DNA of 50,686 nucleotides from Ignavibacteria bacterium (GTDB taxonomy: Bacteria > Bacteroidota > Ignavibacteria > Tepidaquicellales > OLB5), in the NCBI GenBank assembly GCA_030835085.1, contig JAUQWQ010000144.1, positions 1-50,686 of the forward strand, in the 5' to 3' direction. The notes below the pieces were generated by a model. The model had not been told where the DNA came from and made no database searches. It worked only from the letters and a program-made list of their open reading frames with translations. How positions within the stretch are numbered: the stretch's first letter is position 1; each line of letters opens with the position of its first letter. Shown here in pieces: positions 23,649 through 27,060 of this stretch. The position numbers and the translations under genes were made by a program.

Positions 23649-23954
23649 TCAACTACTCTCCAAAGATTTAAGCCTATCGGGATCTTGCCTGTTATCCCAT
23701 ACAGATTGAATATAAAGATCTTCCCCGTTAATCTTATAAAAAATAGAATAATGTTTGAGAATGAACAAACGAACATTACTTCTGTTAGTTTTTTTACCTG
23801 CCTGTGGAAATTCTGAAAGAGTTATTGCTGAATTTTCAAACTGAGAATCCAATTTAATACTATAGGTATTGGACTTATTATTTTCAACCCAGAATCTGAA
23901 TATTTCAAACCTATCTCTTAAAGCCCTCTCTGTCCAGATTATTCTTTTTGCCAC
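23649..23954 (-). CDS. Type II toxin, RelE/ParE superfamily
   Basis: A 101-residue toxin-like protein with the RelE/ParE fold signature: IIWTERALRDRFEIFRFW at the N-terminus, the middle LDSQFENSAITLSEFP, then RLFILKHYSIFYKINGEDLYIQSVWDNRQDP at the end. The conserved IFYK...I.I..VWD.R.DP pattern is typical. GTG at 23954 is the start and lies 16 bases inside the upstream antitoxin gene, which indicates translational coupling. RelE relatives cleave mRNA on the ribosome, while ParE relatives poison gyrase; the sequence does not decide between them. It is expected to be held inactive by the 77-residue partner. Confidence 0.88.
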   Translation of the reverse strand: MAKRIIWTERALRDRFEIFRFWVENNKSNTYSIKLDSQFENSAITLSEFPQAGKKTNRSNVRLFILKHYSIFYKINGEDLYIQSVWDNRQDPDRLKSLESS

Positions 23955-24172
23955 TGCTTAGCAATTTTATGCGCATCTTCATGTGAGTAAACTTTGCCTT
24001 CAGAAATATTCCGGTCAGCTTCATTTAATGCTTTTTCCTGATCTTCATTCAGTACGTATATTTCAGAATCTTCTTCAATATCAATTAAATGCGAAATGCC
24101 TTCAAGCATTTCAACATTTTCAGATTTACTTATCTTTTCTATGAGTTTAATTTTGAGTTCAGCAGTTGTCAT
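23939..24172 (-). CDS. Antitoxin partner of the RelE/ParE-like toxin
   Basis: A 77-residue acidic protein placed directly upstream of the toxin, overlapping it by 16 bases. The N-terminal half is helical (MTTAELKIKLIEKISKSENV), and the C-terminal half ends with LNEADRNISEGKVYSHEDAHK, the pattern of many antitoxins that wrap around RelE/ParE partners (the E-G-K-V-Y-S/T-H segment just before the end). No clear DNA-binding motif is visible, though the first ~45 residues could dimerise and bind the promoter. Autoregulation of the pair is expected for the class but no operator is obvious. The identification rests on size, order and ending together. Confidence 0.83.
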   Translation of the reverse strand: MTTAELKIKLIEKISKSENVEMLEGISHLIDIEEDSEIYVLNEDQEKALNEADRNISEGKVYSHEDAHKIAKQWQKE

Positions 24173-24266: not shown

Positions 24267-25211
24267 TTAACCCGCTGCCCGCATTATTAGAAATGCATTA
24301 AGTAATATGTATATAATGGAAACCGAATAAAAGCTCAGCCTATCCAGTTTTTTAGCCTTGGCTAAATATTCAGGTTTTTGGGTTTCGTTCCATTTGAAAG
24401 AAATTACCGCAACGACCAGTATTACAAAGATCGCAATAAATGTTATGTTGTGAATATTATCAAACAGCGTGTTGGATACAGTTGAGGGCACGACAGATTC
24501 AATAATATATTTATTTCCCACGGCGGCAAAAAGGCCGCCAACGCAGAGTCCAAGCCTGTCACTTGGCTTTACGAAGAATGCAAGCAGAACAATCGAAAAA
24601 GCAACATACACACCGGTGAGCATTTTGAAAAGAGTGTTCCATGAGTTTTCACGGGTCAGGTAAATATCAGCCGTTACAGAAGGATATGTGCTTGAGCCTT
24701 TTATGACCGGGTCGCCAAAAGTTGTATTGTAGGTTTGATTATTAACATAAAATGCGAGAGAATCAATTTTCCAGTTGCTCAAAAGCAGGTTTGAATCAAT
24801 TGCGGAATTACCGGCATCAGTAATGAAGGCGAGTTTTTTAGTATCGTAAATAGTGTGATCAATATGCAGGGTCAATTTCTGTTTATCGAAAGGAAAAGAT
24901 GAGACATCCCACTCTTTAAAAACTACAGCGCTGAATTTCATCATATCCCAGTTGATCCCGTCCTTTTTCATTTTGGAATAGTTTGTAAAGGATGATGATT
25001 TAGAATTCGTTACCTCAAGGGCATCATTGAACTGGAGACTATCGTTTTTGTAATTGAACCACATCCAGAAATCAGATGAGAAGCTTTGGTCACTGATGTT
25101 GAAATCAGTAAGTGAGTTTATATATATGCCAACTTTACAGGTATCATCAGCAGAGCGGACGAAAGAGTTTATTAATAAAAGAAGCAGTACCGCGGATAAA
25201 ATTTTATTCAT
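24267..25211 (-). CDS. Pentameric ligand-gated ion channel homologue (GLIC/ELIC-like)
   Basis: A 314-residue membrane protein with the layout of prokaryotic Cys-loop-type channels. Residues 1-20 are a signal peptide. The extracellular beta-sandwich starts KVGIYINSLTDFNISDQSF, continues DFWMWFNYKND, and contains the Pro loop WDVSSFPFDKQKLTLHID (FPFDKQ at 106-111). Four membrane helices follow: M1 ~195-214 (LFKMLTGVYVAFSIVLLAFF), M2 ~217-241 (DRLGLCVGGLFAAVGNKYII), M3 ~253-272 and M4 ~292-311. The pair of disulphide cysteines that gives the superfamily its name is absent, as in other bacterial members. Ligand and ion selectivity are unknown. It is read away from the AlkC-like gene on the opposite strand. 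Confidence 0.78.
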   Translation of the reverse strand: MNKILSAVLLLLLINSFVRSADDTCKVGIYINSLTDFNISDQSFSSDFWMWFNYKNDSLQFNDALEVTNSKSSSFTNYSKMKKDGINWDMMKFSAVVFKEWDVSSFPFDKQKLTLHIDHTIYDTKKLAFITDAGNSAIDSNLLLSNWKIDSLAFYVNNQTYNTTFGDPVIKGSSTYPSVTADIYLTRENSWNTLFKMLTGVYVAFSIVLLAFFVKPSDRLGLCVGGLFAAVGNKYIIESVVPSTVSNTLFDNIHNITFIAIFVILVVAVISFKWNETQKPEYLAKAKKLDRLSFYSVSIIYILLNAFLIMRAAG

Positions 25212-26541: not shown

Positions 26542-27060
26542 TTACTTTCTCAATTCAAAAATCCTCACGTTATCATATGTTGATTTGTGACATGATATGC
26601 ATGCTTTGCCGTTCTTACTTACGCTGTATTCAACATCACCTGTTAGCGAGTATTCAGCCCACAGCCAGTCCTTATTTGAATTGGGTGCGCCTTTGAGTTT
26701 TACCATAACGGCAAGAACTTCAACTGCGCCTGTTTTTTCAGAGTAGATCTCTTTTACAATAATTGATGAATCGGGGAACATTACACCCTTGGGAAGATGC
26801 CCATCCTGATTAAGCACATCTGCAGCCTTTTTGTTGAACCTGATTCGCATAAAATTATCATGAGCGCGTTCGGTTTCTTCGCTAGTTGGCAGAATTTCAG
26901 GGTTATTCTGATAATAATAATAACCTGTATCGGAAGTTATCCATTTAAACAGCTTTTCATCTTCGGCAGTTTTACCGGGCGGAAACAAAAAAATATAACC
27001 CGTTACAACAATTGCAATGAATGCGAAAATAAAAATAAAAACAGTTTTTTTCTTTTTCAT
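26542..27060 (-). CDS. Cytochrome P460-like haem protein, membrane-anchored
   Basis: A 172-residue protein with an N-terminal membrane helix (residues ~6-26, VFIFIFAFIAIVVTGYIFLF) and a periplasmic domain of the cytochrome P460 type. A CISCH haem c motif lies near the end, at residues 154-158. Supporting segments are GYYYYQNNPEILPTSEETER, LPKGVMFPDSSIIVKEIY and WLWAEYSL before the haem site. P460 proteins bind haem through an extra lysine crosslink and oxidise hydroxylamine or bind NO; relatives of unknown function are common, so the reaction here is not assigned. The membrane protein gene 45 bases upstream (27105) is in the same direction. Confidence 0.8.
   Translation of the reverse strand: MKKKKTVFIFIFAFIAIVVTGYIFLFPPGKTAEDEKLFKWITSDTGYYYYQNNPEILPTSEETERAHDNFMRIRFNKKAADVLNQDGHLPKGVMFPDSSIIVKEIYSEKTGAVEVLAVMVKLKGAPNSNKDWLWAEYSLTGDVEYSVSKNGKACISCHKSTYDNVRIFELRK

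Follow-up and report, generated by a model that had tools for sequence, protein, structure and literature searches.

Pentameric ligand-gated ion channels (pLGICs) were recognized in bacteria by Tasneem et al. (PMC549065), a paper that already includes Cytophaga hutchinsonii. In the accessible text of PMC9607081, the proline at the kink of the first membrane helix (M1) is described as present in all pLGICs, and passages of this article and of PMC4813548 report that its conventional replacement silences GLIC, the nAChR and 5-HT3 receptors; in those of PMC4813548, GLIC P203A is nonfunctional and conventional mutants at the site give negligible current. Table 1 of Jaiteh et al. (PMC4795631) lists 77% proline and 5% glycine at this position (M1 14'), as well as 13% phenylalanine at pore position 9'. 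Hence, the M1 proline is frequent and not universal in that table, a glycine at this place marks a variant that still allows pLGIC membership, and single substitutions such as those described below are already on record. Regarding a channel clade from Bacteroidota or Ignavibacteria, nothing was found in the literature at the level of titles, abstract beginnings and text passages. Neither did we find in such passages the combination fixed in our clade, i.e. glycine at the M1 site, glycine at 2' and 6', phenylalanine at 9', tyrosine at 16' and no loop A.

We analyzed a gene from an Ignavibacteria bacterium contig (JAUQWQ010000144.1), of which the whole stretch of 50,686 nucleotides is called here the window. 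The gene is complete (314 aa plus stop) and occupies 24267..25211 on the minus strand. The coordinates given in the preliminary description stand, while the reading direction had to be set to the minus strand, the plus frame being closed by many stops. The encoded protein is related to the nerve-receptor channels for acetylcholine, GABA and glycine, and belongs to a bacterial branch with a glycine-lined pore and a glycine in place of the M1 proline. Its nearest named relative is found in an Ignavibacteria metagenome-assembled genome (L046, 97% identity). Between both genes dN/dS is 0.03, with 7 changed codons and 0 amino acid changes in the second membrane helix (M2).

Homology and predicted fold

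The protein had been proposed to be a relative of GLIC and ELIC and, as a pLGIC, this proposal was borne out by sequence, profile, predicted fold and the conserved residues of the family, which all agree. Neur_chan_LBD (PF02931) matched residues 80-188 (E 1.5e-6, 28.3 bits against a gathering cut-off of 26), and 68 of 83 relatives matched it at E <= 0.001. Searching the PDB with phmmer gave GLIC as the top match (E 5e-6), and the best 60 matches listed were all GLIC entries. A profile of the 83 relatives reached GLIC at E about 1e-20, in an alignment spanning nearly the whole chain. The AlphaFold2 model, a monomer built from the alignment of these relatives (pLDDT 89, pTM 0.76), contains the beta sandwich (strands within residues 24-187) and the four membrane helices that had been read from the sequence. 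A fold without this arrangement was looked for in the model and in the PDB comparison, and neither of them gave one. Foldseek returned 1106 PDB matches at E <= 0.001 with GLIC in first place (E 2e-20); with VIA-align, GLIC, GluCl, GABA-A and glycine receptors could be superposed over about 280 residues at Z about 23. ELIC and DeCLIC were absent among the 50 rows listed from Foldseek's top 1000, which says nothing about their likeness.

Several observations were counted against a channel. The Pfam search of the window protein listed no match to Neur_chan_memb, NCBIfam LGIC_1 (NF033918) scored 28.1 bits against a curated cut-off of 500, and identity to GLIC is only 17%. The match to NCBIfam LIC was weak and below its cut-off. 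DUF998 was rejected as a candidate, with E 1.4e-4 under its cut-off and the helices alone covered. A whole-genome search with PF02931 found no match in the window's own genome, and the controls gave none either.

To count conserved residues, we used two sets. The first is an alignment of 83 rows (A2), for which loci had been chosen by M2 peptides, so its M2 conservation is no proof; pore residues were therefore recounted in 37 independently found genes. These are distinct subfamily genes retrieved by whole-protein or extracellular-domain queries, with no M2 motifs as bait: the extracellular-domain query matched 58 distinct rows at E <= 0.01, some of which (such as L043, L149 and L150) are probably due to chance, and we kept those ranked above L035 and holding M2, excluding the fragment L027 (fragments L172 and L173 rank below and are uncounted). 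Out of seven positions conserved in the superfamily according to Table 1 of PMC4795631, six are present in the window protein, and the seventh, the M1 proline, is the recorded glycine substitution. The residues that couple both domains are conserved: the FPxD loop, the pre-M1 arginine, the beta-9 aromatic (W147, entropy 0.24 bits in the 37 genes) and the M2-M3 loop proline (P242, 37/37). Computationally, homology to pLGICs, the predicted fold, these coupling residues and strong purifying selection are all demonstrated.

GLIC, the proton-gated channel of Gloeobacter violaceus, leads the PDB matches in sequence and is one of the top ones in fold; it belongs to the same length class and shares with the window protein the absence of Cys-loop cysteines, a short M3-M4 link and an acid before M2. 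Animal GABA-A, glycine and GluCl receptors resemble it in fold, FPxD loop, pre-M1 arginine and M2-M3 proline, whereas the window protein has neither their Cys-loop disulphide nor the long M3-M4 domain, and presents a glycine in M1 and a glycine-lined lumen.

The extracellular domain

The hydrophobic N-terminus is a putative signal sequence (residues 1-20; 25152..25211, minus strand), modelled as a helix at residues 2-15 with low pLDDT after it. The extracellular (periplasmic) beta sandwich follows at residues 21-189 (24645..25151, minus strand), as delimited by the model strands and the PF02931 match. In beta 2, FWMWF (residues 48-52; 25056..25070, minus strand) contains W51, conserved in 37/37 and 83/83, and W49, found in at least 90% of A2. 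We take W49 and W51 to be the loop D positions. The WDVSSFPFDKQ loop quoted in the preliminary description is indeed present at residues 101-111 (24879..24911, minus strand), and it is the Pro-loop, a Cys-loop equivalent without cysteines that carries the F/YPxD motif of PMC4795631 (Table 1). F106, P107, F108 and D109 lie in the beta6-beta7 loop, the last three being present in 37/37 and also invariant in A2. Its aspartate is expected to form a salt bridge with the pre-M1 arginine R187 (24651..24653, minus strand), which is found in 83/83 and 37/37.

Loop C carries the motif YNTTFGDP (residues 161-168; 24708..24731, minus strand), with Y161, T163 and G166 in 37/37. The form YxTx(F/Y)GD also occurs in L179-L182, and a regular expression for loop C matched 46 of the 58 rows, more distant types included, and 73 of 82 pattern-found genes. 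In all 37 genes W51 and N69 are spaced by 17 residues, versus 38 in GLIC: about 20 extracellular residues with the canonical loop A are missing, and the gap in the GLIC alignment covers the loop A stretch. In the canonical pLGIC orthosteric site, this segment presumably corresponds to WxP(D/E) and what comes after it. According to the GLIC alignment, the window protein does not contain it.

The membrane helices and the proposed mode of action

M1 spans residues 190-213 (24573..24644, minus strand) in the model and the GLIC alignment. Counting from the pre-M1 arginine, the kink proline of GLIC aligns to G200 (24612-24614). This site holds glycine in 37/37, and glycine in 77 and cysteine in 6 of the 83 rows of A2, so a membership feature, the M1 14' proline, is lacking from the window protein. 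The absence of a residue that GLIC requires was also counted against a channel. M2 (residues 216-240; 24492..24566, minus strand) reads D-1', R0', G2', G6', F9', G13', Y16', E19' and S20', an assignment based on the model, the GLIC alignment (gap-free from 0' to 23') and the residue counts. M3 (residues 249-276; 24384..24467, minus strand), with D251 and H254 invariant at its outer end, and M4 (residues 280-313; 24273..24374, minus strand) were taken from the model.

The M2 string given in the preliminary description, RLGLCVGGLFAAVGNKYII, is found at residues 219-237, and its unlikeness to GLIC was confirmed: GLIC has T at 2', S at 6', I at 9', A at 13' and I at 16', where the window protein has G, G, F, G and Y; GLIC also has the M1 proline and loop A. 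ELIC, the amine-gated channel of Erwinia, absent among the matches listed, presumably shares the acid at -1', the arginine at 0' and an aromatic at 16', and presumably differs in the lumen residues at 2', 6', 9' and 13'. Across the 37 genes, R0', G6', F9', Y16' and P23' are found in 37/37, G2' in 36/37 (serine in L160) and S20' in 35/37, while 13' is glycine in 21 and alanine in 16. M2 is the most conserved segment, with a mean entropy of 0.76 bits as compared to 1.79 for the extracellular domain, 1.30 for M1, 1.54 for M3 and 2.02 for M4. A low M2 entropy relative to the extracellular domain would be expected of channels that retain their conduction as the ligand changes over time. The next group (e.g. 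L035) has a different M2 and the M1 proline.

One could argue that the protein has kept the fold and lost conduction, and now serves as a sensor or a scaffold whose signal is passed on by a partner protein. The M1 proline is missing in 37/37, and alanine or leucine in its place silences GLIC in the available passages of PMC4813548; moreover, hydroxyl side chains are absent at 2' and 6'. However, a relic would not need the most conserved segment to be M2, nor R0', F9' and Y16' in 37/37, and the glycine receptor still works with alanine at the M1 proline, its EC50 rising only 5-fold (PMC9607081, accessible text). We consider the loss of conduction improbable.

The preliminary description had suggested that the pore may have a different selectivity. 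Of the 37 genes, 8 have an acid at -1' and 28 have one at -2', 36/37 together, and only 1/37 has none at either position (the three positions before R0' were inspected). From this acid beside R0', as in GLIC, we predict cation selectivity; the acid at -1' with arginine at 0' is of the cation-channel type, so selectivity is probably not what sets this channel apart from GLIC. The suggestion is hence weakened, and the difference in lumen on which it was based stands. An anion channel is the other option, given that the start of M2 (R0'-x-G2'-L3') resembles that of the glycine receptor. R0' is invariant, G2' is present in 36/37, and a published chimaera with a readable glycine receptor M2 has ARVGL at the same place. 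Yet the acids at -1' or -2' in 36/37 form a ring of the cation type described in passages of Tasneem et al. (PMC549065), which leaves anion conduction unlikely.

Altogether, the gene product is probably a subunit of an inner-membrane ligand-gated ion channel built as a homopentamer. The fold and the residues were obtained by computation, and assembly, gating, selectivity and ligand are inferences. The machinery for coupling matches that of pLGICs, hence a ligand or pH likely drives the opening of a cation pore that has its gate at F9'. The exported periplasmic sandwich would bind a small ligand at the subunit interface through W49/W51 of loop D and the loop C motif YxTxFGDP, and an amine, an amino acid or pH are the most likely candidates. 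The bridge between the Pro-loop and R187 would then relay the motion to the M2-M3 loop, and the M2 helices would move and thereby open the hydrophobic gate, which F9' would form beneath Y16'. With no side chains at G2' and G6', the lower pore would be wide, cations would be favoured by the acidic ring at -1', and G200 may take over the helix-loosening role of the M1 proline.

More tentatively, and with doubts that outweigh our confidence, the whole clade might gate without the M1 kink proline, have a lower lumen free of side chains (Gly 2', Gly 6') that is closed by the Phe 9' and Tyr 16' rings, and sense its ligand without loop A by means of the loop C motif. If so, the superfamily would include a distinct design for gating and permeation. 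A natural clade with glycine for proline and a frozen Gly/Phe M2 offers a direct test of the M1 proline and of the 2' and 6' hydroxyl rings.

Distribution, the second channel type and gene neighbourhoods

Channels of this kind had been called rare and scattered, in agreement with matches in 26/395 genomes of the phylum and 31/294 of the class (extracellular-domain query, E <= 0.001), although the weakest include probable chance matches (e.g. L150, an ABC transporter by eye). Scanning 84,980 species genomes gave 277 relatives, and the 80 kept were, judging from their record titles, all from Bacteroidota, Ignavibacteria, Chlorobiota or Kapaibacterium. Plasmids of two other genera also carry relatives with 27-33% identity, in 8 records from Azospirillum and 2 from Streptomyces, which extends the lineage beyond a single phylum. 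Where annotated, these plasmid relatives are named solely 'hypothetical protein'. They share the YxTx(F/Y)GD loop C, R0', G2' and F9', and differ in A6' (L179) or a threonine at the M1 site (L181); L180 and L182 keep the M1 proline and have lost the outer M2 pattern. A phage origin was discarded, with 0 matches in 50,697 phage records.

After one plasmid relative, that of Azospirillum sp. B510 (L179:3776-8274), a confirmed CheW gene lies 20 bases downstream, followed by an MCP gene. This arrangement would fit the chemotaxis receptor role proposed for bacterial forms in passages of Tasneem et al. (PMC549065). For the window organism we rejected such a role, which appears very improbable: neither CheW nor MCP signalling domains were found in its genome at E <= 0.001, while the controls matched in 7/14 genomes.

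The window's genome has a second channel copy, 36% identical, flanked by an FMN reductase gene and an amine oxidase gene. The tree separates both channel types with 98/99 support and places GLIC outside the 86-row clade at 100/99, with the caveat that branches are long (GLIC, L042 and L177), L177 is present twice and some joins may be false. In 15 loci a flavin amine oxidase gene immediately follows the second type, at a distance of -17 to 28 bases; the channels of two of these loci, L012 and L122, are identical. An FMN reductase gene adjoins the channel in 13 loci. In the window's own genome (contig C193, L002:679-3753) and the 14 other loci, the gene on the opposite side is mostly an NADPH-dependent FMN reductase. 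L019, a relative from another family, lacks this arrangement. These loci may connect the turnover of amines with their sensing, and the paralogue beside the amine oxidase gene provides a first guess of the ligand.

Other arrangements were observed. In L029, L031, L093, L096, L103, L113, L114, L116 and L124 the channel gene is followed, on the same strand, by a member of a penicillin amidase cluster, an assignment from one tested cluster representative, with a gap of 12-30 bases after the channel in 8/9 loci. Tandem channel genes occur at L083:5001-6882 and L119:3045-5014, and could give heteropentamers. L044, L045 and L176 encode long proteins (about 740-770 aa) in which a large N-terminal region precedes a C-terminal part resembling a pLGIC; similar fusions, with Cache domains, are described by Tasneem et al. 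(PMC549065).

The window copy is placed differently. An AlkD-like (DNA-alkylation-repair-like) gene lies 104 bases upstream in the opposite direction, a small ORF and a ParE-type toxin gene lie downstream, and a hexapeptide transferase gene is also among the neighbours. This neighbourhood is not constant even within the genus, so we dropped it as a functional clue. The window copy appears to be a transcription unit by itself, and the neighbours therefore give no ligand name. The ParE-type toxin gene is at 23649-24172 on the minus strand, and the small ORF that overlaps it on its upstream side, without a Pfam match, is probably its antitoxin. Finally, a further gene of the window (26542-27060, minus strand) encodes a member of the cytochrome P460 family that contains a CxxCH haem motif.
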